This document shows, in pieces, positions 1 to 14,144 of a stretch of 64,000 bases of DNA. Position 1 is the stretch's first letter. Each line of letters opens with the position of its first letter. This DNA comes from an uncultured Chloroflexota bacterium (GTDB lineage: Bacteria > Chloroflexota > Dehalococcoidia > GIF9 > AB-539-J10). Position numbers and translations under genes: made by a program. The DNA is taken from the NCBI GenBank assembly GCA_903884455.1, contig CAISEW010000005.1:1-64000 (forward strand), written 5' to 3'. Below the pieces are notes generated by a model. The model ran no database searches. It was not told the origin of the DNA and was given only the letters and a program-made list of their open reading frames with translations.

Positions 1-252
1 CTTCAATGTCGCTTCACCTCCTGCTTGTCCTAGCTCTGAGAAAAATTGGCTTTTGATTAACGACCCACAGACAGGGCACAGGGTAGGATGATTGTCCCGC
101 GTCCTTAACCCGCCTAATCTGCCAGTCTCGACTCTGTCCATATCTTTCTTTAACCTCTGGATACTGGATGGGTAAGAGGGGTTCCCGGCGGCGATGGCCA
201 GTCGTCTCTTATCGCGGGTTCTTATGATATTTATGTTATCCCCACAGCCCAA
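1..252 (-). CDS. Partial protein with CxxC zinc-ribbon half, cut by window edge
   Basis: An open frame without stops runs 84 codons from a TTG at 252 off the left edge of the window. The product is basic at first, then reads GRLGGLRTRD followed by CPVCGSLI, which looks like half of a zinc ribbon; the other cysteine pair would lie outside the window. I do not recognise the family. It sits beside phage-type regulators, so it may belong to a decayed mobile element. The start is uncertain: an in-frame TAG lies two codons upstream of the TTG, and no clear Shine-Dalgarno is visible. Confidence 0.4.
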   Translation of the reverse strand, partial: MGCGDNINIIRTRDKRRLAIAAGNPSYPSSIQRLKKDMDRVETGRLGGLRTRDNHPTLCPVCGSLIKSQFFSELGQAGGEATLK

Positions 253-292
253 TTCCTACCCGCCCAGTATTCAGTTGTTAAAGTGCTAAACC

Positions 293-541
293 TTATGGTT
301 TATCTTTGGCATTATTGGGACAACTCTTGGCATCACTAGCCAAAAAAATTAGAATATCTGCTTGAAGCTCAGGGAAGGCAGCCGAGATACCTTTCAATAT
401 CTTAGTTCCTAGTGGGATTTTCCCACTTCTAGTTCCCTGGTAAAGTTGCCTTGAACAGTTCAATCGCTTCGCTATCTCACTATCGGTCAGCCCTTCCCTC
501 GATTGAATCTCTTTTATTTTGGTCAGTAGTGTCACTTCCAT
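293..541 (-). CDS. Small HTH regulator, Cro/XRE-like
   Basis: This 82-aa protein is little more than one helix-turn-helix: residues 8-50 contain REGLTDSEIAKRLNCSRQLY, the usual XRE/Cro spacing of two helices around a turn. It is divergent from a LexA-fold regulator 172 bp away, the arrangement of a phage or integrative-element lysogeny switch. Its promoter (TTGACA, 17 bp, TAAGAT at 548-576) would start transcription at about the ATG itself, so the message is probably leaderless. Target genes are unknown. Confidence 0.6.
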   Translation of the reverse strand: MEVTLLTKIKEIQSREGLTDSEIAKRLNCSRQLYQGTRSGKIPLGTKILKGISAAFPELQADILIFLASDAKSCPNNAKDKP

Positions 542-547
542 GCCAAT

Positions 548-576
548 ATCTTAGCACCATGCCAAAACCTTGTCAA
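548..576 (-). promoter_or_regulatory. Promoter of the Cro-like gene with overlapping operator
   Basis: Reading the minus strand, TTGACA (576-571), 17 bp and TAAGAT (553-548) form a good sigma-70 promoter. The 10-mer GTGCTAAGAT, which contains the -10 box, recurs on the plus strand at 691-700 just before the divergent gene. Predicted +1 coincides with the ATG at 541. A repressor bound to the 10-mer would block the polymerase directly. Confidence 0.6.
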
Positions 577-690
577 TACCCCCCTTAGCTTTGGTGGCAA
601 AATTAGCACAAACTTTCTATTTTGTATCTGGCTTACAATAGGTTAGAACATTTGTCCTAGAACACAAGACCTTCCCTTTTCCTCCAATAA

Positions 691-700
691 GTGCTAAGAT
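691..700 (+). promoter_or_regulatory. Operator-like copy of GTGCTAAGAT before the LexA-fold gene
   Basis: This is an exact inverse copy of the 10-mer at 548-557, placed 13 bp before the start codon at 713, with TAAGAT in a plausible -10 position. The -35 region is poor, which suits a regulated promoter. Related TTAGCAC half sites occur at 603-609 and 719-725. Confidence 0.45.
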
Positions 701-712
701 TTTGGCTCTAGA

Positions 713-1345
713 ATGGCATTAGCACAGAAGTTAAAGGAACTCAGGAAAGAACGAGACTGGACGCAAGAGGAAGTCGCCAAGCGTTCAGGCTTAGGTAGGC
801 GAACTGTTTCTTATTGGGAAAAAAAGGATAGAAAGAGACCCCCAGCCAATATTTTATTAGGATTTGCCCGTGCCTACAACATCAAGCCTGAAGAACTCTA
901 TCAGGCTGCGGGGTATATCAAAGAAACTAAAATCCCTTATCACCTTGAGGCCCCTGAGGAAATCCTTGATAAGCTGAGGCTCGCTACTCCCGTATCAATC
1001 CCTGTCTATACCGAGTTTCCCTTTCATGCCGGGGACTCCGCGGAGCCTGTGGACTTTGTGTATAGAGCCCGTCCTAAAACTACCGGCAAGAACATTGAAG
1101 GTTATTTGGTTCATGGCAGTTGTCTTGAATCCCAGGTGTCCAGTGGCGATATTATCATCATTGATAGACAAGGGGAGATGAACAATGGCGATATAATAGT
1201 CTGTCTTGTTGATAATGAGCTGCGCATAGGTCGCCTCAGAAAGATAGCCGATGAGCTTTGGTTAGAGAATAATAATAGTAGAATCAAATTGCAAGATTGC
1301 CAGATAGCAGCCCCGGTCATCGAGGTTATAAGGAGGTTGAAATGA
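713..1345 (+). CDS. Phage-repressor-like regulator: XRE HTH plus catalytically dead S24/LexA fold
   Basis: The 210-aa product has an N-terminal XRE helix-turn-helix (residues 3-62, KLKELRKERDWTQEEVAKRS) and a C-terminal S24/LexA-like domain (about 93-208). In self-cleaving family members the pocket reads GDSM with a Ser nucleophile and a Lys about 35 residues later. Here the pocket reads G135-S-C-L, putting Cys137 at the Ser position, and the Lys position in RIGRL is Gly173. It is therefore probably not cleaved on RecA activation and acts as a dimeric repressor switched another way. It overlaps the next gene by ATGA, so the two are likely co-translated. A Cys nucleophile cannot be excluded. 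Confidence 0.75.
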   Translation: MALAQKLKELRKERDWTQEEVAKRSGLGRRTVSYWEKKDRKRPPANILLGFARAYNIKPEELYQAAGYIKETKIPYHLEAPEEILDKLRLATPVSIPVYTEFPFHAGDSAEPVDFVYRARPKTTGKNIEGYLVHGSCLESQVSSGDIIIIDRQGEMNNGDIIVCLVDNELRIGRLRKIADELWLENNNSRIKLQDCQIAAPVIEVIRRLK

Positions 1346-1731
1346 AAAAGGCAGGAGTTATTATCGGTATTATAGCGGTCATAGCTATTATTGCTGGAAC
1401 CGCAATCTGTGTTCTTTCTATTCCGCCCGAATCATCTACTCCACCATATACTGCGTTACCCAGTGTCGTATATAAAATAACGGGAACGGCTAAGGCGGTA
1501 GATGTAACACTTAGTAATCCTACGGGCGGAACAGAGCAATACAGTGGTGTGTACCTTCCCGTACAAGTTACCTATAATTCGTTCTCTGATAGTTTCGTTT
1601 ATATATCTGCGCAAAATGATGGTTCATACGGAAGTGTGACAGTCTCGATTTATGTAAATAATGCACTTTTCAAAACCTCAACAAGCTCAGGTGCTTACGT
1701 GATAGCGACGGCTTCCGGGATGATTAAATAA
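1342..1731 (+). CDS. MmpS-like membrane-anchored beta-sandwich protein
   Basis: The start at 1342 is set by AGGAGG at 1331-1336 and the ATGA overlap with the repressor gene. The 129-aa product has one N-terminal membrane segment (residues 4-27), a short Pro/Ser linker, and a beta-rich outer domain with VVYKITGTAKAVDVTLSNPT, GGTEQ, YISAQNDG and SSGAYVIATASG. That order matches the MmpS-type C-terminal domain of small actinobacterial envelope proteins. No MmpL partner is nearby. Co-transcription with a repressor suggests a gene expressed in the maintained state of an element, perhaps envelope-directed immunity, but that is inference. Confidence 0.6.
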   Translation: MKKAGVIIGIIAVIAIIAGTAICVLSIPPESSTPPYTALPSVVYKITGTAKAVDVTLSNPTGGTEQYSGVYLPVQVTYNSFSDSFVYISAQNDGSYGSVTVSIYVNNALFKTSTSSGAYVIATASGMIK

Positions 1732-1780
1732 GGGAAGATACCCTCCAGGTATTGTCCTTGCTACTTTTTATAGTATCGGA

Positions 1781-1825
1781 CTTTTAATCAGGGTGTCGGG
1801 AGTTCGAGTCTCCCACGGCTCACCA
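1781..1825 (+). pseudogene. 3' fragment of a tRNA-Lys(UUU) gene including CCA
   Basis: The stretch carries an anticodon loop CTTTTAA, the 3' anticodon strand TCAGG, variable loop GTGTC, a perfect T-arm (GGGAG TTCGAGT CTCCC, 1798-1814), acceptor strand ACGGCTC, A73 and CCA. No 5' half (GAGCCGT or similar) precedes it, so it cannot fold as a tRNA. Such 3' ends are typical of attachment sites left by integrases. The 17-bp core CTTTTAATCAGGGTGTC recurs at 12404-12420. Confidence 0.75.
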
Positions 1826-1857
1826 AAGCTATCAGACAAGATTCTCCCCCGGATTAT

Positions 1858-1910
1858 TGATAAAATCAGGGTGTCAGAACACCAGGTCAACCGACACCCT
1901 GATTTTATCA
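1858..1910. repeat. Perfect 18-bp inverted repeat carrying the tRNA-Lys core
   Basis: TGATAAAATCAGGGTGTC (1858-1875) is followed after 17 bp by its exact reverse complement (1893-1910). The inner 12 bp, AATCAGGGTGTC, equal the tRNA-Lys core found at 1786-1797, 12344-12355 and 12409-12420. There is no T-run, so an intrinsic terminator is unlikely; a recombinase site with two arms is a better guess. Confidence 0.7.
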
Positions 1911-1944
1911 CTTCTAATACGGCTTGGAATATTTTGGGTGTTAA

Positions 1945-2175
1945 GAAATTGAGGTTGGCTATTCGGTTCTTTCTGAATTTCAGGGAGAGGGTTTAGCAAC
2001 GGAAATGGTAGCTGGTATAGTTCAATGGGCAAAGCACCAGCCTGAGGTAAGACAGATCGAGGCTGAGACAAATAATGATAATAGAGCTTCAATTCGGGTT
2101 CTAGAAAAGAATAGCTTTGTCTGTGTTGGCGTAGGATTGGAGCCCGATACAATCAGATTTCTCCACTGGTCCTGA
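1945..2175 (+). pseudogene. GNAT acetyltransferase remnant (C-terminal half)
   Basis: After an in-frame TAA at 1942, 76 codons read IEVGYSVLSEFQGEGLATEM and later IEAETNNDNRASIRVLEKNS. This is the acetyl-CoA-binding core and C-terminal part of a RimJ/RimL-like GNAT (Q-x-x-G-x-A/G loop as QGEGLA, and the N-x-A-S-x-R-V-L-E-K-x-x-F motif). The N-terminal half is missing and the break lies 34 bp from the inverted repeat, so the gene was probably truncated by the same rearrangement. Confidence 0.7.
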
Positions 2176-2280
2176 ATCATTTTGACACCCACATGCGTCA
2201 TACAAACTACAAATAATGACAATAATCTTCAAGTGAGGGTGATATTCCAGTGTTTTGTGCTGCCAGAGATTTGACCGTCG

Positions 2281-3549
2281 TCAGTCTATTTTCCGGCGGC
2301 GCAAATGCTCCGCCGTGTAGCCATATGCCCGCTTGAGCCACCCGGGCTGAAAATCGCTGAATAGCAATTCCCTGGCTTCAATCTGCGGCACCTTGCGCAC
2401 TTCCTTGATGCGCGGCAGGAAAAACAACGCCACGACGAGCCGAGCCACCCCTGACACTATGAAGATGGAGAGAAAATAGCTCCCCATAAAAGGCGGCAGG
2501 AGCGGTGCCACAATACCTCCAGTCAAAGACCCCACGCTGACGCCAATGAATATCAGAGAATTGTAGAGAGCTATGTAGCGCGTCCTGTTTTGCGGGGGAG
2601 CTGCATCGAAGATAAAGACGCTACTGGAAAGCTGGAAACCCGCCCATGCAAACCCGGAAAATAGCTGCATACCAATGAGCCACCAGAAGTTGTGGCTTAG
2701 CGCCCACCCGAGCGGTACAAATGGAACAAAGAGGGATGTGATTTTCAGCACCTTGATACTTCCCGCCCTGTCCATCCGTTTGCCCCACCATGGCATAGAA
2801 CCGACAGTCGCAAGGACCGCCACGGAGTTTATGATAGTGTAGACGATGTAGCTGAATTGAAGGTCGTCTAGCATATACGGCGAGAAAAACGGTCCGGCAA
2901 GAGTCGCCGTGAAATTTATCAGCGCGCAGAAAATTATGAACCTGCCGATATTGGTGGAGAACAAGCCCTGAGCTATTTGCAGCACGCCGTCATGGCTCCG
3001 CTTTTCAGTCACCGGGCTGAGCGGTTCATACATCTGTGACAGAAAATAGAACGAGATTAGCCGTGATGCAATTGCTCCGGCAAATATAATGGTGAAAGCC
3101 AGGTCAGTATTGCCGGTGAGCAATTGCAAGATGCCACCAGAGACATAGGTGAACACCCCGGAGATAAAGCCGGTAATGCGATTGCGCTGGCCAAAGTATC
3201 GGCCGCGCATCTGCGCCGGCACCAGGTCCGCCATCATGCTTCCCCACACGGGGTTCAAGGCAGAATCAAAGGCGGTACTCAAAGTCATGAACGCTATCAG
3301 CCACCAGACTTGGTGCGTCTGGAACAGATAGGGAATGAAGAGAATTGGCAGCCACATCAAAGCGTGCATAAGGGCCATGCGGAGTATGAAACCCTTTCGG
3401 CTCCCCATTCTTTCAGAGAGGGCCGGCACCGCGAACTGCACCGCTGCCATGGTGAAATTGGGCACGCTGGTGAGCAAGCCAATCTGCTGAATGCTGGCTT
3501 TCATTGTCAGTGCATATGGTGTAATGTAGTTCTGCGTCAACCCGAGCAT
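2281..3549 (-). CDS. Major facilitator superfamily transporter
   Basis: A 422-aa polytopic membrane protein with about 12 hydrophobic segments. The loop after the second helix reads LSERMGSRKGFILRMAL, the MFS motif A region, and MRGRYFGQRNRI resembles the corresponding loop of sugar/drug permease-like MFS proteins. The substrate cannot be read from sequence. The first ATG leaves the first helix short: the frame stays open upstream for about 40 codons and encodes SLRNSILDGSAYSV, which looks like the family's usual N-terminus, but only ATT, ATA or CTG could start it. A promoter (GTAACA, 17 bp, TATAAT at 3857-3885) lies about 300 bp upstream. Confidence 0.8.
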   Translation of the reverse strand: MLGLTQNYITPYALTMKASIQQIGLLTSVPNFTMAAVQFAVPALSERMGSRKGFILRMALMHALMWLPILFIPYLFQTHQVWWLIAFMTLSTAFDSALNPVWGSMMADLVPAQMRGRYFGQRNRITGFISGVFTYVSGGILQLLTGNTDLAFTIIFAGAIASRLISFYFLSQMYEPLSPVTEKRSHDGVLQIAQGLFSTNIGRFIIFCALINFTATLAGPFFSPYMLDDLQFSYIVYTIINSVAVLATVGSMPWWGKRMDRAGSIKVLKITSLFVPFVPLGWALSHNFWWLIGMQLFSGFAWAGFQLSSSVFIFDAAPPQNRTRYIALYNSLIFIGVSVGSLTGGIVAPLLPPFMGSYFLSIFIVSGVARLVVALFFLPRIKEVRKVPQIEARELLFSDFQPGWLKRAYGYTAEHLRRRKID

Positions 3550-4012
3550 TACGGAATAGGCTGAGCCATCAAGAATACTGTTCCTCAGGCTCTTTTTGAC
3601 CTGTTCCTCGCTCAGATTGGATGGAACATCACGAGGGCGGTGCGGAGGATGTATATCAACCGAAATGGTAGTTTACCTGCCTTGTGCGTAATGGAACCGG
3701 CGTATGCGTCCGGGTGTTGAGTCACATATAACGGTTTCACAGACAATTGCACCCGGATTTCGCTCAAGCCAAGACCCCCGACGTGCTCCCCACTTGAGCC
3801 ATGAGAGAAAGAAACATTGTGAGAGCTTGTGTACGGAAGCAACCATCGATGGGCTCATTATATTGGGCGGGAATTACCCTGTTACCATCGGCGGTATGAT
3901 ATGTCTTTGTTGGTCAATTGTCAACGGGTTGAACAAAGTAGCATTTCGTTACTATTGAAGAAGCGAATAGAGCATAGCAATCTTGCTCTCGAATTTAGAG
4001 TGGCCAGCATCC
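3550..4012. other. Gene-free stretch with promoter for the MFS gene
   Basis: I see no convincing gene here. On the minus strand, GTAACA at 3885-3880, 17 bp and TATAAT at 3862-3857 form a promoter aimed at the MFS gene, with a leader of roughly 300 nt. Part of the leader is in frame with the transporter and may be its lost N-terminal coding sequence. Confidence 0.5.
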
Positions 4013-4357
4013 CTATTTTTTGTTCCTGATAGCTTCCAACTTAGCCTTGGCCTTAACGACTCTGGTGTGGAAGTTATTCAGCTTGTCACATGGGTACTCT
4101 ACGCAGTAGCCACAATTCAATACTTTTCTATCAGCACCACATTTTCTTATTTCGCACACCTTGCAATAACCAATCTGTACATTACCGACTGCTAAGCAAC
4201 CATTGCAATTAATATCTTCAGTCTTGAAGGTGTGTTGATATTGTCTGCTCCATTCTTCGGCAATCTTAGCCCTGGCCTTATTATCGTTTTTTTTGGTTGC
4301 CTTATACGTTGGGCATTCAGTACAAACGAGACCGCAATAAGCTACCATTTCTTGCAT
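4013..4357 (-). CDS. DUF3795-type cysteine-rich protein
   Basis: A 114-aa soluble protein starting MVAYCGLVCTECPTYKAT after a short leader, with later CNGC, CKVC, IRKC and NCGYCVEYPC clusters. This spacing of Cys pairs around a central WS motif matches the DUF3795 family, common in anaerobes and thought to bind metal or an iron-sulfur cluster; the function is unknown. An ATG three codons downstream is an alternative start. It stands alone, with its own short upstream region. Confidence 0.75.
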   Translation of the reverse strand: MQEMVAYCGLVCTECPTYKATKKNDNKARAKIAEEWSRQYQHTFKTEDINCNGCLAVGNVQIGYCKVCEIRKCGADRKVLNCGYCVEYPCDKLNNFHTRVVKAKAKLEAIRNKK

Positions 4358-4748
4358 ATTTTCTCCTTATCTGATATCACTACTACGAATGGCACTAAGC
4401 CATCTGTCGGCTGGCAGTTAATCAACTAACTGTAATTATACCTGATCACCATCAATGCCTAAATTTGGTAATGCGTCTTAGCAAAGAATCGCCAAGTCTA
4501 ATTCGAATCCCGAGGAAACTGAGGAAAAACTGGTTAAAGCCGCCTTCCCTTATCACATTAACTCAATTTGTTACACTGATTCTGAATGAGAAAAAGAGCT
4601 TCTTACACTTAAGTGCATGTCGACATCCCGATGTTTGTCCAACAGTATATAAAATTCGAAGTTAAATAATTCGTAGTTTGATTTAGCTGGTATCTCTATC
4701 TATAATGACCTTGTTATTAGTTTGATAGAAATGTGAAGAAGGATAAAA
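4358..4748. other. Gene-free stretch, possibly a decayed coding region
   Basis: No intact gene is supported. Around 4500-4660 one frame reads NPEETEEKLVKAAFPYHINS and then breaks at a stop, which might be an old remnant, but I cannot place it in a family. Confidence 0.3.
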
Positions 4749-5171
4749 ATGACTTACACAAGCGATGAAGTAGGGCAAATATTGAATCAATTTAAGGAAA
4801 CTCAATTTGTTGCATTGGCCACCATCGATGGAATACGACCAAGAGTAAGGCCAATGACACTGATATATTTGGATCGTAGGTTCTGGATGGTGACCTCTAC
4901 TTCCAGTAACAAAGTTATACAAATTAAGCAGAATACAAATGTAGAGTTTACCTATCAATTCACTGAGAAGAGCGAGGACTGTTGTATACGAATACTAGGA
5001 AAAGCTAAAATCATTAAAGATAAGAAGACAAAAACCAGCATCGCAAAACGGATTGTTTTTTTTAACAATTATTGGTCTAGCCCCGAAGATCCTGATTACA
5101 CCTTACTGGAAATTTTACCTGATGAACTGCAATATGTCGCCCCCTCAGGCATGAAACAATTCCGGTTATAG
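4749..5171 (+). CDS. Pyridoxamine 5'-phosphate oxidase-like (split-barrel FMN) protein
   Basis: This 140-aa protein reads FVALATIDGIRPRVRPMTLI near the N-terminus, the typical first strands of PNPOx-like split-barrel flavin proteins, followed by FWMVTSTSSNKVIQIKQNTN. It is too short and lacks the C-terminal motif of true PdxH, so a general FMN- or F420-binding reductase of small molecules is more likely. GAAGGAT lies 6 bp before the ATG. It is monocistronic in a patch with remnants on both sides. Confidence 0.75.
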   Translation: MTYTSDEVGQILNQFKETQFVALATIDGIRPRVRPMTLIYLDRRFWMVTSTSSNKVIQIKQNTNVEFTYQFTEKSEDCCIRILGKAKIIKDKKTKTSIAKRIVFFNNYWSSPEDPDYTLLEILPDELQYVAPSGMKQFRL

Positions 5172-5399
5172 TCATTTTCATCTTGCGTATTAACGCTCTC
5201 AAATTCATTTTTTACAAAGGGATTATCTCACTATGTCAGTTAAGAAACCACTATTTTTATACTATAATCCTAAACGGCAATCCTATATATGGTTGAAAAG
5301 TGATGCCGATGTTTGTTAAATGGTAACAATTTAGTAGAAAGTTATCCAACAAGATAGCATATTGTTGGATATCTCCGGGTGTTTACCCAAACCACGAAC

Positions 5400-5657
5400 T
5401 TAGCACAGGCTTCTCGGCGGCGTATAAAGCTGGCGCATATGTTCTGACCTTAGAGCTAGATTGGGTACATATTCAACCTTTTCTGTTCCTACTGTCAAGG
5501 CCGTCGCAATGGTGTCGTTATCCCAACCCTTTTCCAGAGCCAACAAAATCAAGTCCAACTTTTCATAGGGAATCCTGATCGCGTCCTCATCGACAATCCC
5601 TGGAATAATGTCCGGTGAAAAAGCTTTGTTTACGATCTCTGAGTTTAACGCACCCAC
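5400..5657 (-). pseudogene. nadE: Remnant of NH3-dependent NAD+ synthetase (C-terminal part)
   Basis: The frame reads SPDIIPGIVDEDAIRIPYEK, LDLILLALEKGWDNDTIA and, at the end, VEYVPNLALRSEHMRQLYTP. This follows the C-terminal stretch of NadE (PSA-x-L-x-P-G-Q-T-D-E, then Y-x-x-L-D-x-I-L and the terminal S-x-H-K-R-x-x-P), but the ATP-pyrophosphatase half (SGGxDS) is absent and the terminal KR is changed. The GTG start is therefore arbitrary. It is best read as a decayed fragment on the minus strand. Confidence 0.6.
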
Positions 5658-5802
5658 GAAGCCCGAGAACTGAGTTGATGTAGTGCCGCTCCCTAGCTAT
5701 TTTCGCGGGGCTCTTATGTATTCTGTTGCCATAAGTCATATTGGAAGGGAACCTGCGAGACGTTCCGGGGAGTATTACCTGTGCGACAAGATGGACGTCC
5801 TA

Positions 5803-5831
5803 TTGACAAATTCTCAGAGGCACGTTATGAT
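5803..5831 (+). promoter_or_regulatory. Strong sigma-70 promoter upstream of the oligopeptide importer
   Basis: TTGACA at 5803-5808, 17 bp, TATGAT at 5826-5831: five of six -10 bases and a perfect -35. Transcription would start near 5838, leaving a leader of about 320 nt before the binding-protein gene. Confidence 0.75.
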
Positions 5832-5837
5832 GTAAGT

Positions 5838-6161
5838 TCACAGTAGTTGCAGCTAGGGGTAACCGTTGTCTCCGTCCGAAAAAGAGTGAGGTTTATGTTC
5901 GTGAGGCTGCCTGCGTGAATTAGTATCGGAGAGGTGCCGGGTGTCTGTTCCCCAGGTTCACCGGCTTTCTTACAAGCGCAGGCAGACTGTGAAAAAAGAG
6001 CTGGAAAGGATCGCTTATTTACAGACCCACTTAACAAGATTTTAATATAAGTAGCGTACTCTTCGAGATAAACAAATCCAAAAAAGGGAGGTGATGCCTA
6101 TCGACCGAGAGTTTAGATAACCAAATTATTGCTTGAAGAAATTTAAACAAAGGAGGTTGGA
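5838..6161 (+). other. Long structured leader of the ABC importer operon
   Basis: The leader contains CTGCCTGCG (about 5908-5916) and its exact complement CGCAGGCAG (about 5979-5987). Inside that, GCCGGGTG pairs with CACCGGC around 5938-5967 with one bulge. Two such nested helices suggest a stable RNA fold. I could not match it to a T-box, cobalamin or other riboswitch I know. AGGAGGT just before 6162 is the ribosome site for the first gene. One frame through 5950-6040 could encode about 30 basic residues, but no start is convincing. Confidence 0.4.
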
Positions 6162-7940
6162 ATGAGTAAAAGAGTTTCAAAAGTGGGCTGGATAATCATG
6201 GCTGCTTTGTTATGCGTTTCTCTTGCCATATTGCCAGCCTGTGGTGGTGGTGGGGCGATACCATACAAGAACCCCGGTGTCTTTGTCCAGCAGACCATCG
6301 GAAGGATCGACTCCCTTGACCCGTGCTACTGCTACGACACCGCTAGCGGTGAGCAGATTTACTATATGTATGAGGGGCTACTGGGTTATAATGGCACTAG
6401 CACCGACACGTTCGTGGGGCTTATGGCCACAGACTATTATTGGGTCAACAGCACGTCACTACGCTTCAATATCCGTCCGGGCGTAAGATTCTCAAACGGC
6501 GACAATATGACCGTTGCAGATGTGGAATACTCGTTTGAACGGGCGATGGTTGAGGACCCGGATTATGGGCCTGTCTGGATGTTTTATTTCCCGCTGCTGG
6601 ATACCTACGGCAGCCGTAATTCGACCGGTAATATTACGATTACTTCCGCCGAAATCGACCATGCAGTGGAGGTAGTTAACAGCACTTGCATCGAGTTTAA
6701 CTTCGTTCGCCCCTTTCCAGCTACCACTTGGTACCAGATCGTGTGCGGCTCCTGGGGTTCGATTGTAGATAAGGCATATTGCGTCGCTCACGGCGACTGG
6801 CCTGGCAGCTGGGGCAATTGGACACTTTATAACAACCCGGCACAGACGAACCTTGTACTCCAAAGTAGAGCCATGGGTACAGGGCCCTGGGCACTTGACA
6901 CCTGGACCCCACCCGGTGAGATCAAGCTGGTGAAAAACGATTACTACTGGAACGCCGGTGTGCACGCTGTGCCCTTTGATAGGGTCCTCACCCAGTTCGT
7001 CGACTCATGGCCTAGCCGAAAACTGGCACTCTTGGCCGGAGATTGTGACATTGCCTATTGTCCGCGGACGAACATCGCTGACCTCGCAGGTGTTGCGGAC
7101 GTCAACGCCGTCAGTGGTCTGCCTGAGCTTACTATTGATTCCTTCTACTTTAATCAGAACATAACGAGCACCACCACCTATGCTGGCAGTAAAACACTTG
7201 ACGGCAACGGCATCTCCTTGGACTTCTTCTCTGACATAAACGTGCGCAAAGGCTTTACTTATGCCTTCGACTGGGCTACCTATATCGCGCAGGCCATGCA
7301 GGGCGAGGCTACGCAGAGGGGCTCACCATTTGTTTATGGCCTCCCGTACTTCAACCCGGCTGCTAATATGTATAGCAAGAATCTAACGCTGGCTAAGTAC
7401 TATCTCGAGCACTCCGCCTGGGGTAACCTCACGGCTATTGGATTCAAATTCACTTTAATCTACAACACCGGTAACCTGGTGCGTAAGACTGCCTGCGAGA
7501 TTCTGGCTAATAACCTGTTCGCTATCAGCCCCAACTTTCAGGTCGCCGTCCTGGCGAAAGACTGGTCGAGTACAATGTCACTTATAAGAGGCAGGACGTG
7601 GGTTATGTTCCAGATAGGCTGGCTGCCCGACTATGCCGACCCCGACAATTATGCAGTTCCTTATATGCACAGTCAGGGTACATTCTCCGGACCCGCTTCC
7701 TTCAACAACGCCACCGTCGACGCCCTGATTGCGGAGGGCGCAATTTCTACCAATACCACACGGCGGCAGGAAATCTACTATGCGCTGCAGCAGGCCTGGT
7801 ACGATCAGCTCCCTGGCATCATTCTGGCTCAGCCGCTGGGCAGGCGCTTCTTCACCAAGTATATAAGTGGCTTTGAGTTTAACCCGACAACATGTGGCCA
7901 GCCCGGCAATCTGTATTACATGAGCAAGTCAGAGTCCTAA
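6162..7940 (+). CDS. Oligopeptide/dipeptide ABC importer, substrate-binding lipoprotein
   Basis: A 592-aa family 5 extracellular solute-binding protein. The N-terminus has KR, a hydrophobic stretch and a lipobox LPAC with Cys27, so it is predicted to be a lipid-anchored exported protein. The mature part has the family signature around LRFNIRPGVRFSNGDNMTVADVEYSFERA (positions about 88-116). Many N-x-S/T and small aromatic residues occur in the lobes. It heads a five-gene operon with two permeases and two ATPases; a strong hairpin follows it. The ligand may be peptides, but this family also carries nickel, sugars and opines, so substrate is open. Confidence 0.9.
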   Translation: MSKRVSKVGWIIMAALLCVSLAILPACGGGGAIPYKNPGVFVQQTIGRIDSLDPCYCYDTASGEQIYYMYEGLLGYNGTSTDTFVGLMATDYYWVNSTSLRFNIRPGVRFSNGDNMTVADVEYSFERAMVEDPDYGPVWMFYFPLLDTYGSRNSTGNITITSAEIDHAVEVVNSTCIEFNFVRPFPATTWYQIVCGSWGSIVDKAYCVAHGDWPGSWGNWTLYNNPAQTNLVLQSRAMGTGPWALDTWTPPGEIKLVKNDYYWNAGVHAVPFDRVLTQFVDSWPSRKLALLAGDCDIAYCPRTNIADLAGVADVNAVSGLPELTIDSFYFNQNITSTTTYAGSKTLDGNGISLDFFSDINVRKGFTYAFDWATYIAQAMQGEATQRGSPFVYGLPYFNPAANMYSKNLTLAKYYLEHSAWGNLTAIGFKFTLIYNTGNLVRKTACEILANNLFAISPNFQVAVLAKDWSSTMSLIRGRTWVMFQIGWLPDYADPDNYAVPYMHSQGTFSGPASFNNATVDALIAEGAISTNTTRRQEIYYALQQAWYDQLPGIILAQPLGRRFFTKYISGFEFNPTTCGQPGNLYYMSKSES

Positions 7941-7990
7941 CAAAGGGCTAGTCTTGCAGAGCGCCCGATGGGCGCGATGAGATAAATCTG

Positions 7991-8018
7991 GAGACCCCCG
8001 CTTGCCAGCGGGGGTCTC
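7991..8018 (+). terminator. Intra-operon hairpin between binding protein and permease genes
   Basis: GAGACCCCCGCT and AGCGGGGGTCTC form a perfect 12-bp stem with a TGCC loop. There is no long T-run (TCTATGG follows), so it more likely stabilises the upstream message or partly attenuates, giving more binding protein than permease. Confidence 0.7.
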
Positions 8019-8039
8019 TCTATGGTATAAAGGGGCGAT

Positions 8040-9086
8040 TTGGAACTAAGGTCTTATATCATCCGCCGTGTGCTTCTTCTTATCCCGGTCCTTATCGGGG
8101 TGACTTTGTTTATCTTCGGCATTACCATGCTCTTTCCCCCTGCACAGCGTGCGACTCTTTATGTCACTAACATGAGGCAGCTGTCTGACCTGCCGGCTAT
8201 CATTCAGAAGTATGGTCTTGATAAACCGTTCTTCGTGCAGTACGGCACCTGGCTCAACCAGGTACTCCACGGTAATCTGGGCTGGTCGCGAGCGATCTCT
8301 ATGCCTGTTGCGCAGGCTATCCCGCATCTCCTGCCGGCTACGCTGGAACTGGCTATATTCGCAGTGCCGCTTATCGTTCTGGTTGGCATTTTCTTAGGTA
8401 CTAAGGCCGCCACCCACAAAGACAAGCCTCTTGACCACGGTACACGGGTAGTAGCCATCCTGGGCTGGTCGCTGCCCAGCTTCTGGCTGGGGCTGGTACT
8501 GATGATGATTTTCTACGGCTACTTCTCCGGCCTTCTACCGCCTGGCCGGCTCGGTGTTCAGATGGATATTTTAGTTGACTCGGCCGCGTTTATACGCTAC
8601 ACTCATATCAACACTATTGACGCCATCCTCAATCTTAACGGGCCGGTTCTTCTGGACGCCTTAAGACACCTCATCTTGCCGGTGATGACCCTTTCAGTGA
8701 TCAACATGGCCTTTATCATGAGACTGATGCGCTCCAGCATGCTGGAGTCTCTGGGCAAGGGATACATCCTCACCGCCAGGGCCAAGGGACTTGCTGAAAA
8801 AGTTGTGGTCAATAAGCATGCCCGCCGCAATGCCCTCATCCCAGTGATAACTGTATCGGGCTATCTATTTGCCGGCCTGGCGAGCGGTGCTGTTATCACC
8901 GAGACCATCTTCAGCTTTAAGGGCATCGGCTGGTGGGCCTGGCAGGCGGCGGTTATGTTGGACATACCATCAGTTTTGGCTTTTGCCCTGTTCACTGCCA
9001 CCCTGTTTGTCGTCATCAACTTACTGGTGGATATCCTCTACACACGTGTTGACCCGCGAGTGAGATTAGGAGGAGCAGTGCAATGA
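8040..9086 (+). CDS. Oligopeptide/dipeptide ABC importer, permease 1 (DppB/OppB type)
   Basis: A 348-aa permease with a TTG start; its N-terminus MELRSYIIRRVLLLIPVLIGV is the usual opening of OppB/DppB proteins (positive residues, then first helix). About six membrane segments follow, with the cytoplasmic EAA loop around residues 240-262 (TARAKGLAEKVVVNKHARRN), where the ATPase docks. The last bases overlap the next gene in ATGA. It forms the membrane channel with the second permease. Confidence 0.9.
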   Translation: MELRSYIIRRVLLLIPVLIGVTLFIFGITMLFPPAQRATLYVTNMRQLSDLPAIIQKYGLDKPFFVQYGTWLNQVLHGNLGWSRAISMPVAQAIPHLLPATLELAIFAVPLIVLVGIFLGTKAATHKDKPLDHGTRVVAILGWSLPSFWLGLVLMMIFYGYFSGLLPPGRLGVQMDILVDSAAFIRYTHINTIDAILNLNGPVLLDALRHLILPVMTLSVINMAFIMRLMRSSMLESLGKGYILTARAKGLAEKVVVNKHARRNALIPVITVSGYLFAGLASGAVITETIFSFKGIGWWAWQAAVMLDIPSVLAFALFTATLFVVINLLVDILYTRVDPRVRLGGAVQ

Positions 9087-9970
9087 GTGACTGGAGATTT
9101 ACAGCACGGCAGCTTGCTAAGAACCCGCTTTCGCTGACGGGAGTCGTGATCATTGCCATCTTTATCATCATTGCCATCTTCGCTCCTCTTATTGCTCCCA
9201 CACCGGCAGGTCAACTAAACTCCTATATGATACCCCGTGATGGTTACTGGGCAGAACCGCAACCTCCCAGCGCGGCGCATATCTTGGGCACCACCCAGGG
9301 GCAGTACGATATCTTCTACGGGGTTGTCTGGGGCGCTCGCTCTGCGTTTCGTGTGGCATTGGTGGTGATGTCCATTACACTTCTCATCGGGATCGTACTG
9401 GGTAGCCTGGCTGGCTACTTTGGCGGGGTTCTGGACGAGATTCTCATGCGCATCACCGATATCTTCCTGGCCTTCCCCTGGCTAATTCTGGCTATGGCGC
9501 TCGTCGTTGTCTTGGGGCCCGGCCTGAAGAGTGTTATGATTGCTCTTATCGTGGTCTGGTGGCCTTCCTATGCGCGGCTCATCCGCGGCGACATACTCCA
9601 GGTGCGTGAAGAAGACTATGTCGAGGCTGCTCGCGGCCTCGGGGCCTCGAGCGGGCGGGTCATAATCCGCCATGTGCTGCCCAACGCCATCTACCCCGCA
9701 CTTATCATGGCTTCACTGGACATCGGAGCAGTGGTCCTGTCGGCGGCAGCGCTGAGCTTCCTTGGTCTGGGTGCCCCTGAAGGTTACGCCGACTGGGGGC
9801 AAATGACCCAGTTCGCCCAAAACTGGATTGTAGGGCCACTGGATAACCCTTTGAAGTACTGGTATGCGGTCATCATTCCCGGCCTGTTCATCCTCTTTTT
9901 TGTGCTGGGCTGGAATCTTCTCGGGGATGCCTTCAGGGATATTTTTGATCCGAGGTTGGCGAGGCGCTAG
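9083..9970 (+). CDS. Oligopeptide/dipeptide ABC importer, permease 2 (DppC/OppC type)
   Basis: A 295-aa permease starting inside the end of the previous gene. Residues 8-40 form the first helix (LAKNPLSLTGVVIIAIFIII), followed by a periplasmic stretch with HILGTTQGQYDIF, the usual OppC motif (HxLGTDxxGRD) with D and R replaced. The EAA loop reads EAARGLGASSGRVIIRHVLP near residues 182-201. It pairs with the first permease; the stop codon abuts the next start. Confidence 0.9.
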   Translation: MSDWRFTARQLAKNPLSLTGVVIIAIFIIIAIFAPLIAPTPAGQLNSYMIPRDGYWAEPQPPSAAHILGTTQGQYDIFYGVVWGARSAFRVALVVMSITLLIGIVLGSLAGYFGGVLDEILMRITDIFLAFPWLILAMALVVVLGPGLKSVMIALIVVWWPSYARLIRGDILQVREEDYVEAARGLGASSGRVIIRHVLPNAIYPALIMASLDIGAVVLSAAALSFLGLGAPEGYADWGQMTQFAQNWIVGPLDNPLKYWYAVIIPGLFILFFVLGWNLLGDAFRDIFDPRLARR

Positions 9971-11128
9971 ATGGAAGACCTTGTCAGGATAAGAGACCTC
10001 ACTGTCAGGTTTCACACTTATGAGGGCGTCGTTTACGCTATCGATGACCTGGACCTGGACATCAGACAGGGAGAGACGCTGGGGATAGTGGGCGAGACCG
10101 GTTCGGGAAAGACCATGACTGCCCTGGCTATCCTGCGCCTTATCCCCTACCCCGGTAGAATAGAATCGGGGAGCATCGTCTTCTTTGACAAAGGCCTCCG
10201 TAGTGAACTTGAGCTGCTGAAATTGAGCGAGGATAAGATGAGGTCCATTCGCGGCTGCAAAATATCCATGGTGTTCCAGGAGCCGGGGTCTGCCTTAAAC
10301 CCCGTGTATACTATCGGTGATCAGATCTCCGAAGTCTACCTACTTCACCAGCGACAGGAGCTCGGCCGCCAGGCAAAGCGACGAATAGACAGCCTGCTCG
10401 GCAACGGAGGCACCCTTGCCGCTAGCATCAAGAGGCCTTTCTGGCGCTGGCAGAGCAGGCTTTACAACAAGATAGCCGAGGGATCTAATCCCCTTGAGCC
10501 TCGCATCTTGAGTCATATCCCGTTGTTCAGGCGGCTTCTTTGGCGGCTAAAAGATGAGGCTGGGTTGCTCACGGTTAGTATGCTGAAGGATGTGGAGATC
10601 CCCGACCCGGACCGCGTGGCTGGTCGCTACCCGCACGAACTCTCGGGGGGTATGAAACAGCGGGCGGTGATTGCCATGGCACTGGCCTGCTCTCCGGAGC
10701 TCCTCATAGCCGATGAGCCGACTACATCACTTGATGTCACGATTCAGGCGCAGATGCTGGAGCTCTTCCGCCGGATTAAGGCGGACAGAGGAGCCTCCGT
10801 TCTCTTTATTACTCACAACCTGGGAGTGGCCGCGGAAGTCTGTGACCGGGTGGCGGTTATGTATGCCGGCAGGCTCTGCGAGGTAGCCGGCGTCGAGGAG
10901 ATATTCCTCCACCCCATGCATCCTTATACCAAGGCTTTACTGGAAGCCGTTCCTATGCCGGGGAAAGAACTGCAGACCATCCCCGGGGCACTGGCTGACG
11001 CGTTCAACCCGCCGCCAGGTTGCCGCTTTCACCCGCGGTGTCCCAGCGCCATGCCGACGTGCCAGCACGAGAGGCCTAAACTTAAGGAGGTCGCCAAGGA
11101 CCATATGGTCGCCTGTTATCTTTACTAA
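9971..11128 (+). CDS. Oligopeptide/dipeptide ABC importer, ATPase 1 (DppD/OppD type)
   Basis: A 385-aa ABC ATPase: Walker A GETGSGKT (about 36-43), Q-loop VFQEPGSALNP, signature LSGGMKQR, Walker B LLIADEPTTSLD and H-loop ITHNL. The C-terminus has the oligopeptide transporter tail PPGCRFHPRCPSAMPTC. Compared with ordinary DppD there is an extra segment of roughly 50 residues between the Q-loop and the signature (around 125-190, rich in Arg and Trp). It works as a heterodimer with the next product. Confidence 0.9.
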   Translation: MEDLVRIRDLTVRFHTYEGVVYAIDDLDLDIRQGETLGIVGETGSGKTMTALAILRLIPYPGRIESGSIVFFDKGLRSELELLKLSEDKMRSIRGCKISMVFQEPGSALNPVYTIGDQISEVYLLHQRQELGRQAKRRIDSLLGNGGTLAASIKRPFWRWQSRLYNKIAEGSNPLEPRILSHIPLFRRLLWRLKDEAGLLTVSMLKDVEIPDPDRVAGRYPHELSGGMKQRAVIAMALACSPELLIADEPTTSLDVTIQAQMLELFRRIKADRGASVLFITHNLGVAAEVCDRVAVMYAGRLCEVAGVEEIFLHPMHPYTKALLEAVPMPGKELQTIPGALADAFNPPPGCRFHPRCPSAMPTCQHERPKLKEVAKDHMVACYLY

Positions 11129-11131
11129 TTT

Positions 11132-12178
11132 ATGGACACCTTAGTTGATATCAGAAGATTGAAGAAACACTTCCCAATACTCGGGGGTGTTTTGAGAAGA
11201 CCGGTGGGAGCAGTCAAGGCGGTGGATGGTGTCAGCCTGGCGATTAAGCGGGGGCAATGGCTGGGGCTTGTCGGCGAATCGGGCTGTGGCAAGACGACAC
11301 TGGCCAAGACACTTATCCGTCTCTGGAAACCAACCAGCGGCCATATTTATTTTGATGTTCCCGATGTGGTGAAAGCGGAGATAGAAATGTTGGAGTCACA
11401 GGACAAGAACGGTAGTAAGCTGAACTCTCTTCTCAAGGAGAATGATCTAGGGACCTTTTCCAGTAGCAGGGTCCGCTCATTTCATCGCCGTGCCCAGCTT
11501 GTCCACCAAGACCCCTTTACCTCCCTTAATCCACGCATGAAGATAAAGAATATAGTTGCTGAGCCGCTGAAGATACACCATGTCCTGTCCGGCCACGCAG
11601 TCGAGACGGCGGTCGAGGAGCTATTGGACAAGGTTGGTCTAAGCTCAGGGCAACTGGAGCGCTATCCCCACCAATTTAGCGGCGGTCAGCGCCAGCGCAT
11701 CGCCATCGCTCGCGCCCTGGCTACGAAACCGGAGTTCATCGCATTTGATGAACCGACTTCTGCCCTGGACGTCTCTGTCCAGGCCCAGATTCTCAACCTT
11801 TTAAAGGATCTCAAGAGAGAATTCGGCCTCACTTATCTCTACATCACCCATGAGCTTTTGATTGCCGAGAGTGTCTGCGATTATATCGCTGTGATGTACG
11901 TGGGTAAGGTGGTGGAGATGGGGAAGCCGGAGGAGATATTTCACACACCACGTCATCCCTATTCCCAGTCCCTGATAGCGGCAACGCCAGTCCCTGATCC
12001 TACGAGAAGGGTCGGTCGCATTGTCCTTCCTGGTGAGGTACCCAGCCCAGCCAATCCACCACCCGGCTGTCATTTCAACCCCAGGTGTTCTCGGGCCAGC
12101 GACGAGTGCCGGGAATTTGAGCCAGAGCTCAAGCTTATTAGCAACGACCACTACGTTGCCTGCTTTTATCCTCTGTAA
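11132..12178 (+). CDS. Oligopeptide/dipeptide ABC importer, ATPase 2 (DppF/OppF type)
   Basis: A 348-aa ABC ATPase beginning 3 bp after the previous stop. Walker A GESGCGKT, Q-loop VHQDPFTSLNP, signature FSGGQRQR, Walker B IAFDEPTSALD and H-loop ITHEL are intact; the tail carries PPGCHFNPRCSRASDEC. An insertion of about 40 residues sits between Walker A and the Q-loop (EIEMLESQDKNGSKLNSLL). As the last gene of the importer operon it completes the ATPase pair. Confidence 0.9.
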   Translation: MDTLVDIRRLKKHFPILGGVLRRPVGAVKAVDGVSLAIKRGQWLGLVGESGCGKTTLAKTLIRLWKPTSGHIYFDVPDVVKAEIEMLESQDKNGSKLNSLLKENDLGTFSSSRVRSFHRRAQLVHQDPFTSLNPRMKIKNIVAEPLKIHHVLSGHAVETAVEELLDKVGLSSGQLERYPHQFSGGQRQRIAIARALATKPEFIAFDEPTSALDVSVQAQILNLLKDLKREFGLTYLYITHELLIAESVCDYIAVMYVGKVVEMGKPEEIFHTPRHPYSQSLIAATPVPDPTRRVGRIVLPGEVPSPANPPPGCHFNPRCSRASDECREFEPELKLISNDHYVACFYPL

Positions 12179-12532
12179 ACCGCCTTCCTCTCCAGCTATG
12201 TTTATTTACCTAATATATCCCGGTATATCTCACGGGTTTGCTAACTGGTGTTTGTTTTCTCCTAGTTGTGTATATGGATTGACATGCTGGATCTCAACCT
12301 CCTCTATCATTATTTGTCGGTTTAAACCCAGTGCCTGAGAAAAAATCAGGGTGTCAAAATGGCTCATTTCACCTCCTTTCCTATTTATTTTTACCCTCCA
12401 TAACTTTTAATCAGGGTGTCACAGGTTCGAATCCTGTACGGCTCACTCTCTATTTCCCTGGTCAATATAGTTATACGACATCCTGGTCAGACTGATCAGC
12501 CCCATTTCAAGGGCATTGACTAAGGTGTTACA
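12179..12532. other. Gene-free stretch with two copies of the tRNA-Lys core
   Basis: No gene is visible. The stretch holds the 12-bp core AATCAGGGTGTC at 12344-12355 and the tRNA-Lys 3' fragment at 12404-12445, about 90 bp before an excisionase-like HTH gene. It looks like one boundary of an integrated segment. Confidence 0.6.
12404..12445 (+). pseudogene. 3' fragment of a tRNA-Lys(UUU) gene without CCA
   Basis: The fragment carries the loop CTTTTAA, TCAGG GTGTC, a perfect T-arm ACAGG TTCGAAT CCTGT (12421-12437), ACGGCTC and A. The following CTC means no encoded CCA. There is no 5' half upstream. It shares the first 17 bp exactly with the fragment at 1781 but has a different T-arm, so the two derive from different tRNA-Lys copies or from exchange inside the anticodon arm. 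Confidence 0.75.
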
Positions 12533-12880
12533 ATGTTCTTAATGAAGGGCTATACACTAAGAGAGGCTGCCGAGGCTTTAGGGGTCTCAATAGTTACCAT
12601 CCGTCGCTATATCAAGTCTGGCAAGCTCAAAGCCAGGCTAGTCCCTTCCAAGTTCGGAGAGTCATACATTATCGAAGACCTACCCCTGCCCACTAAGCCG
12701 TTATCAGATAACACCTTATCAACCCAACCCCTTATCAGTAGAATAGAGCAACTATCCCAGGAAGTCGGCTATTGGAAAGCTAAAGCAGAATTGCTTCAGG
12801 AACGATTATTGCTTCTAGAAGCCCCTAAGCAGACCCCTAAGCAAAAGTGGTGGCAAAGATTGTTCAGGCCTTGGCAGTGA
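12533..12880 (+). CDS. MerR/excisionase-like HTH protein with coiled-coil tail
   Basis: The 115-aa product starts with a short winged HTH (GYTLREAAEALGVSIVTIRR, then KSGKLKARLVPSKFGESYII), the helix-turn-helix-17/excisionase pattern. After a Pro/Ser linker, residues 70-98 form a likely coiled coil (SRIEQLSQEVGYWKAKAELL), and the tail is Lys/Trp rich. Position next to the tRNA-Lys fragment fits a recombination directionality factor or a plasmid-type regulator, but no integrase is nearby. ATG at residue 4 is an alternative start. Confidence 0.6.
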   Translation: MFLMKGYTLREAAEALGVSIVTIRRYIKSGKLKARLVPSKFGESYIIEDLPLPTKPLSDNTLSTQPLISRIEQLSQEVGYWKAKAELLQERLLLLEAPKQTPKQKWWQRLFRPWQ

Positions 12881-13087
12881 ATAGACAAGGCTGTCTCAAT
12901 CTAATTCCGTCACTACATCTCTTACTTTACAACGCCTTTTGCTAACATTTTTGCTAACGAACTTTTCACCATCAAAAACTAAAAGTTACTTAGCGGTATA
13001 AATCACAGCTACCCAGCCTCTTTTTGTGGAAGGAAGGAAAAACACTAGATGTTTCGGTAGAAAGGGCATAATGTTAAAATTAGTTAT

Positions 13088-14068
13088 ATGCCAGCGAATC
13101 TACCGCCACAGTATTTTGAGGCTGAGAAGAGATACAGGTCAGCCAGGGAGCCAGAGGAGAAGATTGCGGCTCTAGAAGCTATGCTCGCCATTATGCCCCA
13201 CCATAAAGGCACCGATAAGCTCCATGCCGTGCTAAGACAGAAGATTGCCAAGTTTTCCCAGGAGGCAGAAAAAAAGTACGCCACAGCCAGGAGAACAGGA
13301 TTCTATATTGATCGGGAGGGTGCCGGACAGGTAATGTTAGTAGGGCCGGCCAATGCCGGGAAATCCCAGCTGCTGGCGGCGGTAACCGAGGCCATTCCTG
13401 AGATAGCTGAATATCCCTTCACGACTAAAACCCCTATGCCGGGTATGATGAAGTTTGAAGATATTCAAATACAACTGGTAGATACGCCGCCCATCGGGCA
13501 CAAAGAAGTGAGAATACTATTAGCAAATGCCCTGAGAAACGCTGACCTCATTGCTATTGTAATAGATTTATCCCTGGAGCCAATAAGTCAGGTAGAGGCA
13601 GCTCTTCAAGGGCTAAGAGAAGCCAGAATAGAGCCCTTAACAGATGATGGTACACAACCAACTCCGGGAAGTTATTCCAGCAGGATGTTGATCGTGGGAA
13701 ACAAGAATGAGCTGGCAGGTTCAAACAGGAATTGGGAGCGCTTGCATTCACAATATGCCAAGTTGTTTCCCCTGGTTTCCATTTCAGCCAGGGAAGGTCG
13801 CGGCTTGGAGGAGTTCAAAAGAGCAGTTTATCAAGCCTTGAATATAATCCGGGTTTATACCAAGACCCCCGGCAGCAAGGCCGACCTGACTGACCCCATG
13901 GTACTGGAGAAGGGCAGCACACTGGAAGAAGCTGCTGAAAGCCTCCATAAGGACTTCTATCAGAATTTGAAGTATGCTGTAGTTTGGGGCTCAGGAAAGT
14001 ATGATGGGCAGAGGGTTAGCAAGGGACATGTCCTTCAAGATGGCGACATAGTCGAGTTTCATATCTAA
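13088..14068 (+). CDS. Obg/DRG-type GTPase with C-terminal TGS domain
   Basis: A 326-aa protein with an N-terminal helical region (1-75), a G domain and a TGS domain. G1 is GPANAGKS (about 85-92), G2 lies in YPFTTKTPMPGM, G3 is DTPP, and G4 is NKNE, a variant of NKxD. The C-terminal 70 residues (RVYTKTPG ... VSKGHVLQDGDIVEFHI) are a TGS fold, as in DRG and YchF-like proteins, which bind ribosomes or RNA. Replacement of the G4 Asp by Glu may change nucleotide specificity. It appears to be a single-gene unit. Confidence 0.85.
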   Translation: MPANLPPQYFEAEKRYRSAREPEEKIAALEAMLAIMPHHKGTDKLHAVLRQKIAKFSQEAEKKYATARRTGFYIDREGAGQVMLVGPANAGKSQLLAAVTEAIPEIAEYPFTTKTPMPGMMKFEDIQIQLVDTPPIGHKEVRILLANALRNADLIAIVIDLSLEPISQVEAALQGLREARIEPLTDDGTQPTPGSYSSRMLIVGNKNELAGSNRNWERLHSQYAKLFPLVSISAREGRGLEEFKRAVYQALNIIRVYTKTPGSKADLTDPMVLEKGSTLEEAAESLHKDFYQNLKYAVVWGSGKYDGQRVSKGHVLQDGDIVEFHI

Positions 14069-14144
14069 ACAAACCCCAAAAAGTGGCAAGGACCCCTGAG
14101 CGGAGTGAGAACACTGCTGGCTTTTATTACAGTCTGACTTAAAC

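Follow-up and report, generated by a model that had tools for sequence, protein, structure and literature searches.

A tRNA-half-site palindrome as a probable integrase accessory site at the left end of a Dehalococcoidia tRNA-Lys element

We propose, with a probability of about three in four, that a perfect palindrome at positions 1858-1910 of an uncultured Chloroflexota contig (CAISEW010000005.1) forms the accessory site at the left end in a family of tRNA-Lys integrative elements in Dehalococcoidia, and that its arms copy the half-site of ~12 bp recognized by the integrase of these elements. The proposal draws on the anatomy of the element, an empty site in a relative, the conserved spacing of the palindrome, the type of integrase in related elements, and arms that track the target tRNA over a footprint of ~12 bp. 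All positions refer to the 64,000-nucleotide stretch that was analysed as a whole (hereafter, the window).

The palindrome and the elements around it

The two 18-nt arms (1858-1875, + strand, and 1893-1910, - strand) are 100% complementary and separated by 17 nt, which agrees to the nucleotide with the perfect 18-bp inverted repeat of the preliminary description. Arm 1 repeats the tRNA half-site in direct orientation (core at 1864-1875), and arm 2 repeats it in inverted orientation (core at 1893-1904). The 17-bp centre on the + strand between them (1876-1892, AGAACACCAGGTCAACC) is conserved across the family in length and partly in sequence. The 12-nt core AATCAGGGTGTC is found exactly at 1786, 1864, 12344 and 12409 on the + strand and at 1893 on the - strand; these are the five occurrences reported earlier, including the lone one at 12344-12355. 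With at most one mismatch, 7 matches fall in the window compared with 0.40 expected, a number reached by 0 of 100 shuffles, the sites with one mismatch being at 7719 (within an ORF) and 50788 (within tRNA-Gly). Searching the whole 1.56-Mb assembly added a single exact copy, inside an intact tRNA-Lys(TTT) at 1926-2000 of contig C9, with no other intact tRNA-Lys(TTT) seen at a core of this kind in the assembly; the reversed control pattern had 0 matches in the same 1.56 Mb.

The core had been described as that of a tRNA-Lys anticodon arm. Its origin in tRNA-Lys is borne out, but it is not the whole anticodon arm: the 12 nt comprise the last two bases of the anticodon loop, the 3' strand of the stem and the variable loop. 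Because the copies at 1786 and 12409 run on into the T arm and acceptor strand, they represent tRNA-Lys 3' halves; those at 1864, 1893 and 12344 have no such continuation. No Rfam match is listed at the palindrome, and the exact palindrome has 0 occurrences in viral contigs. A small hairpin within it (GTGTC/GACAC) was dismissed, as by eye it is not conserved across species. Directly 3' of the palindrome, at about 1938-2175 (+), a truncated GNAT-like acetyltransferase fragment was noted by eye.

The palindrome is located at the left end of element B (1782-12404), ~10.6 kb in length and flanked by direct repeats of the tRNA-Lys 3' half at 1782-1822 and 12405-12445, both on the + strand. The left repeat, which also matches the left-end profile, begins with the att core TTTTAATCAGGGTGTC (1782-1797), the same as in the intact tRNA-Lys on C9, and is followed by an encoded CCA at 1823-1825; arm 1 starts 78 bp after the start of this core. 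The right repeat is the original chromosomal half, which shares 98% identity with the intact tRNA-Lys and its flank at the empty site of G016, a member of the same genus. According to Pfam, the cargo of element B encodes an MFS transporter (2281-3549, -; MFS_1, 8e-45), a DUF3795 protein (4013-4357, -) and a PNPOx-like protein (4749-5171, +), the two spanning 4013-5171, and an oligopeptide ABC transporter (Opp) operon with a binding protein, two permeases and two ATPases (6162-12178, +).

In G016 the tRNA-Lys near the GTPase gene is uninterrupted, about 200 bp away from it. The upstream part of this locus can be aligned with C9 through the tRNA at 86.6%, and the downstream part with window positions 12403-12456 (98%) and 12940-14070 (87%). 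Given these matches on both sides, the tRNA-Lys of C9 and the GTPase gene of the window were formerly neighbours, and two insertions, elements A and B, appear to have separated them. On C9 the tRNA-Lys is followed by a tyrosine integrase, which marks the integrase end of element A, and the right end of this prophage-like element occupies 1-1781 (+) of the window with an S24/HTH repressor (713-1345; Pfam HTH_3 and Peptidase_S24) and a small ORF. The middle of element A is absent from the assembly; the empty site in G016 suggests that the two ends belong together. At G000:C9:1-1925 (L007) the element A integrase starts 1 bp after the tRNA and is accompanied by small ORFs. Tandem tRNA-Lys halves are also present at tRNA-Lys in other members of the genus. 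In G023, tandem tRNA-Lys-like cores of the variant TTTTAATCATGGTGTC (L258:5716 and 7641) lie downstream of an intact tRNA-Lys and form another array with a changed core. An excisionase-like HTH_17 gene is situated at 12533-12880, just inside the right-hand tRNA half; in G013 this block is conserved together with att and the right end (88%), in G007 together with att (82%), and it is absent from the empty site of G016.

Right ends, integrases and the palindrome family

No match to integrase profiles was obtained in the six-frame translated window, and element B is therefore an integrase-less derivative and not an autonomous element. Its relatives in G089 and G013 carry an integrase at the right end. 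The 43.6-kb contig G089:C6 has a left att with the palindrome and a right att at its far end; a tyrosine integrase adjoins the right att, and the gap between the integrase start and att contains a direct pair of core copies at a distance of 18 bp. The right end of G013 is built in the same way. Window positions 12247-12880 are 88% identical to it, the stretch 12247-12343 (+) being homologous to the upstream region of the G013 integrase, and lack one 18-bp repeat unit as well as the integrase gene. Hence the core copy at 12344-12355 (+), which precedes the right att by 65 bp, is what remains of the right-end sites in an element that has lost its integrase. Since G089:C6 contains a second integrase of the family in its interior, this contig may hold two or more elements. 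At the right ends of G089, G013, G399, G432 and G139, additional half-sites with the core sequence adjoin the recombinase gene. In G085, a pair of direct core copies spaced 20 bp apart (L248:3036-3067, -) lie about 600 kb from the tRNA-Lys palindrome of that genome, beside a masked stretch, and are possibly a stranded right end.

Sequence matches to Pfam, NCBIfam and PDB entries indicate that the integrases of the relatives consist of a SAM-like (core-binding) and a catalytic domain only. They align with XerC/XerD/XerA models and chains over most of their length, and none of them has a match to an arm-binding domain, which places them among the simple (arm-less, Xer-like) tyrosine recombinases. 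Residues R170, K194, H263, R266, H289 and Y298, which we take to be the catalytic set, are invariant in an alignment of 20 integrase sequences.

Within the order, 5 genomes out of 84 carry the exact palindrome. A scan of genome contigs for the palindrome arms, with a free centre of 5-35 bp, returned 101 stretches. A centre of 17 bp was observed in 30 of the 31 hits titled Dehalococcoidia, Dehalococcoidales or Dehalococcoidaceae, whereas only 4 of 66 non-Chloroflexota hits had it (Fisher 1.4e-19; four other Chloroflexota-titled hits, with centres of 17, 17, 32 and 18 bp, were left out of the comparison). The four 17-bp cases outside Chloroflexota (L136, L153, L200 and L211) have neither an adjoining tRNA core nor the family centre and were treated as chance. 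Upstream of 28 of the 33 distinct palindromes with the family centre we find the tRNA-Lys att core, at a distance of 77 (4 cases), 78 (21) or 79 bp (3), start to start; the remaining 5 have no clear upstream att core. This association does not accord with the alternative of a core that is widely dispersed and repeated without relation to tRNA genes. A tRNA D-arm motif, taken as the sign of an intact gene, accompanies 12 of the 28 linked att cores. The ORFs beyond the palindromes vary from case to case in position and size. Among 35 palindrome loci scanned, for which the DNA examined was often a few kb, only L195 has an integrase match on the element side, and three have one on the other side.

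Individual members depart from this geometry. In L205 the arms are the same and the centre measures 27 bp, about one helical turn longer, and a single arm is mutated in L240/L257 and in L228. At L149:1715-1760 the anticodon-loop sequence of tRNA-Lys is fused straight to arm 1, the 78 bp between them being skipped as if att core and arm 1 had recombined. Two tRNA-Lys left ends, L116:7585-7706 and L117:7893-8023, display by eye a terminator-like hairpin (CCACCCT..AGGGTGG) and then a T run; one inverted core copy follows the hairpin, about 110-120 bp past the att core, in the place of arm 2 in other ends.

Arms and the target tRNA

Homologous left ends at tRNA-Lys(CTT), in G103 and G139, retain the centre (AAAACACCGGGTCAAAC compared with the AAAACACTAGGTCAACC type), while in both arms, as mirror images, the CAG of the CTT tRNA replaces the GGT of the TTT tRNA; arm 1 of L291 is altered at one more position. 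The repeats at the right-end integrase of G139 read TCAGCAGGTC and TCAGCTTGTC. The two genomes with this CTT palindrome belong to a single genus, and its pattern was found in 1 of 379 genomes (control, 0). Beside tRNA-Gly(CCC), G357 and G286 have palindromes with a 17-bp centre that are built on the half-site of this tRNA, GCAGAGGGTC, with one change in one arm of G286. Genome-wide, 2 of 386 genomes contain the Gly-type pattern and as many contain its reversed control; its weight as evidence comes from the position of both true matches beside tRNA-Gly. Of 133 distinct regions downstream of tRNAs, 16 hold palindromes of the tRNA's own half-site that score 17-20 of 20, all 39-42 bp past the tRNA, and the other 117 score 14 or less; since the regions include loci chosen for holding a palindrome, these numbers do not represent a frequency.

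The spacers between integrase and tRNA provide a broader comparison. Integrase loci matched in 193 of 393 genomes, and 30 loci plus 40 further ones, mostly in rank order, gave the 70 supplied to the test. Spacers with identical outer 60 bases were merged, and rows without an intact tRNA within reach (39) or with the tRNA facing the other way (7), both counted by hand, were left out, so that 34 spacers were used. The best match to the spacer's own target averaged 8.06 of 10, compared with 7.07 (sd 0.14) for permuted targets, and 0 of 20,000 permutations reached the observed value. With one spacer for each distinct half-site (n=21) the means are 8.10 and 7.06 (0 of 20,000). The left half-site scored 7.85 compared with 6.97, and dinucleotide-shuffled spacers gave 6.77. 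In 8 of the 34 spacers the best match to the R half-site is only 6-7 of 10. A strand bias of the spacer copies (20 to 4, with 10 ties) was discarded as evidence, because permuted targets also show a value of 0.71.

In the 22 spacers with an outward-strand copy of at least 8 of 10, high identity to the tRNA is confined to positions -2 to +9, with values near background outside, so that the footprint common to the copies is only ~12 bp. Positions 0 to 9 had been selected on; position -2, with an identity of 0.91, had not. Many spacers contain a single inverted copy without a partner, and in L040 and L041, integrase homologues beside tRNA-Pro, exact inverted copies of the own half-site are located 22-24 bp past the tRNA. 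Inverted copies of the own target are also seen in relatives at a distance similar to that of arm 2.

These data bear on three other explanations of the palindrome. It might act at the RNA level, folding into a hairpin that terminates or attenuates transcription and so shields the element from read-through out of tRNA-Lys; its position just 3' of the tRNA, its perfect pairing, the TTTTAT that often follows and the terminator-like hairpin ahead of the inverted copy in L116 and L117 would suit such a role. A terminator scan of the + strand limited to loops of 3-8 found none, however, and a hairpin would not need arms that correspond to the integrase's DNA target, as they do for other tRNAs too, nor does it account for arms that decay singly or for the partnerless inverted copies in many spacers. 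We regard this function as very unlikely. About as improbable is the view that the copies are operators for self-repression of the integrase, with no part in recombination. Right-end copies do lie between the integrase start and att, and in Tn5401, binding of TnpI to its own site modulates expression (PMC7157771). Yet in G089 the palindrome is opposite the integrase end, in L271 and L291 it lies 3' of the integrase, and a fixed distance to the att core would be unexpected of an operator. The right-end copies may serve as both operator and recombination site.

The preliminary description offered two readings, a recombinase binding site or the product of repeated integration. The latter suits the tRNA halves at 1786 and 12409, which are explained by tandem insertions and have their empty counterpart in G016. 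As for the palindrome, relics of past insertions are conceivable in view of the tandem tRNA-Lys-half arrays in the genus, and core-like repeats do recombine or slip naturally, as seen in the 18-bp unit missing at the right end of the window and in the L149 fusion. But the match to the tRNA ends after ~12 bp and leaves no T-arm remnant, the spacing of 77-79 bp and 17 bp is constant over many species, one copy is inverted, and the centre is kept while the arms change. We therefore attach hardly any weight to such an origin. A recombinase binding site is the best-supported reading, as the arms follow the sequence of the target tRNA in relatives, and in this respect the earlier idea was right in kind.

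Mechanism, precedents and significance

In the accessory-site model, each arm would duplicate the half-site of ~12 bp read by the tyrosine integrase in the tRNA anticodon arm. As the enzyme is Xer-like and has no arm-binding domain, it would grip the core and the arm copies with the same domains. Once the element is circular, the core would have two direct copies to one side (at -84 and -66 in G089; only the one at -65 here) and the inverted pair opposite them (+78 and +107). The copies would make attP unlike attB, and extra protomers bound to them would take the role of the lambda arm sites, build the synapse and bias integration against excision. Having lost the integrase and one right-end site, the element in the window would be stranded or moved in trans. 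The missing 18-bp unit and the L149 fusion fit recombination among the repeats, and either could be ordinary slippage.

The principle of extra recombinase sites beside a core has precedent. TnpI/irs of Tn4430 and Tn5401 has a core of two inverted half-sites and direct-repeat accessory sites DR1 and DR2 for the same recombinase, adjoining its gene, with a DR2 copy also near each end of Tn5401 (PMC7157771). The ends described here resemble it in carrying extra half-sites of core sequence, presumably bound by the recombinase, beside the core and the recombinase gene. In contrast, TnpI/irs resolves transposon cointegrates, with no tRNA target and no target switching, and its accessory sites are direct repeats rather than an inward-facing palindrome. 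At the integron site attI1, two supplementary sites for the Xer-related IntI1, also named DR1 and DR2, lie beside the core and are described as possible topological filters (PMC8946536). Supplementary sites beside the core, here probably bound too, and an Xer-type integrase are shared features, whereas the partner of attI1 is a folded attC and not a tRNA, its cassettes have no paired att ends, and it has no far-side palindrome.

An arm-less tyrosine recombinase, predicted here for the relatives, is also the hallmark of the Brujita type, which differs in belonging to actinobacteriophages. The attP of the Brujita type has an extra binding site, P1, the system reportedly has no directional control, and we know of no target-following palindrome for these integrases. 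In a survey, the enzyme is a simple tyrosine recombinase that lacks the arm-binding domain and moves a phage, and the lambda arm sites have a sequence of their own, bound by a separate N-terminal domain (PMC8138268). Lambda attP is similar in that accessory sites for the integrase flank its core on either side and make it unlike attB; here, however, the copies equal the core half-site, and the integrases have no arm-binding domain match. The ssrA islands of Dehalococcoides are tandem, bounded by repeats of an RNA gene 3' end and in some cases devoid of an integration module (PMC3146451), and element B is likewise bounded, in tandem and without an integrase. The same source assigns them the serine recombinases DsiA and DsiB and ssrA as target (PMC3146451), whereas the target here is tRNA-Lys and the relatives carry tyrosine recombinases. 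An inverted repeat has 0 mentions in the main text of that account (PMC3146451). In the mainly open-access literature we found no description of tRNA-element ends that copy the target half-site, or of target-following palindromes at such ends.

Most phage and ICE tyrosine integrases in a large survey have an arm-binding domain, and the arm-less ones are a recognized minority that, as this survey suggests, may have less intricate regulation (PMC8138268). Another paper calls the directionality of arm-less systems a conundrum (PMC6109161), and an archaeal recombinase review has both reactions proceed without directionality factors (PMC8371274). On balance, though with distinctly less assurance than for the palindrome itself, we favour the view that the ends described here are the arm-less integrases' own answer to the lambda arm sites: they would carry extra copies of the target half-site, single or as an inward palindrome with a 17-bp centre, a switch of tRNA would rewrite the copies together with the core, the target could be read from the element end, and integrase specificity and attP architecture would evolve as a unit. 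If this is true, target-following accessory sites would be a concrete and testable solution to arm-less directionality, and the target tRNA of an arm-less integrase would be predictable from ~12-bp repeats at the element end. They would also help to detect integrase-less islands in metagenome assemblies, and the family would offer a series of integrase/attP pairs that nature has already retargeted.
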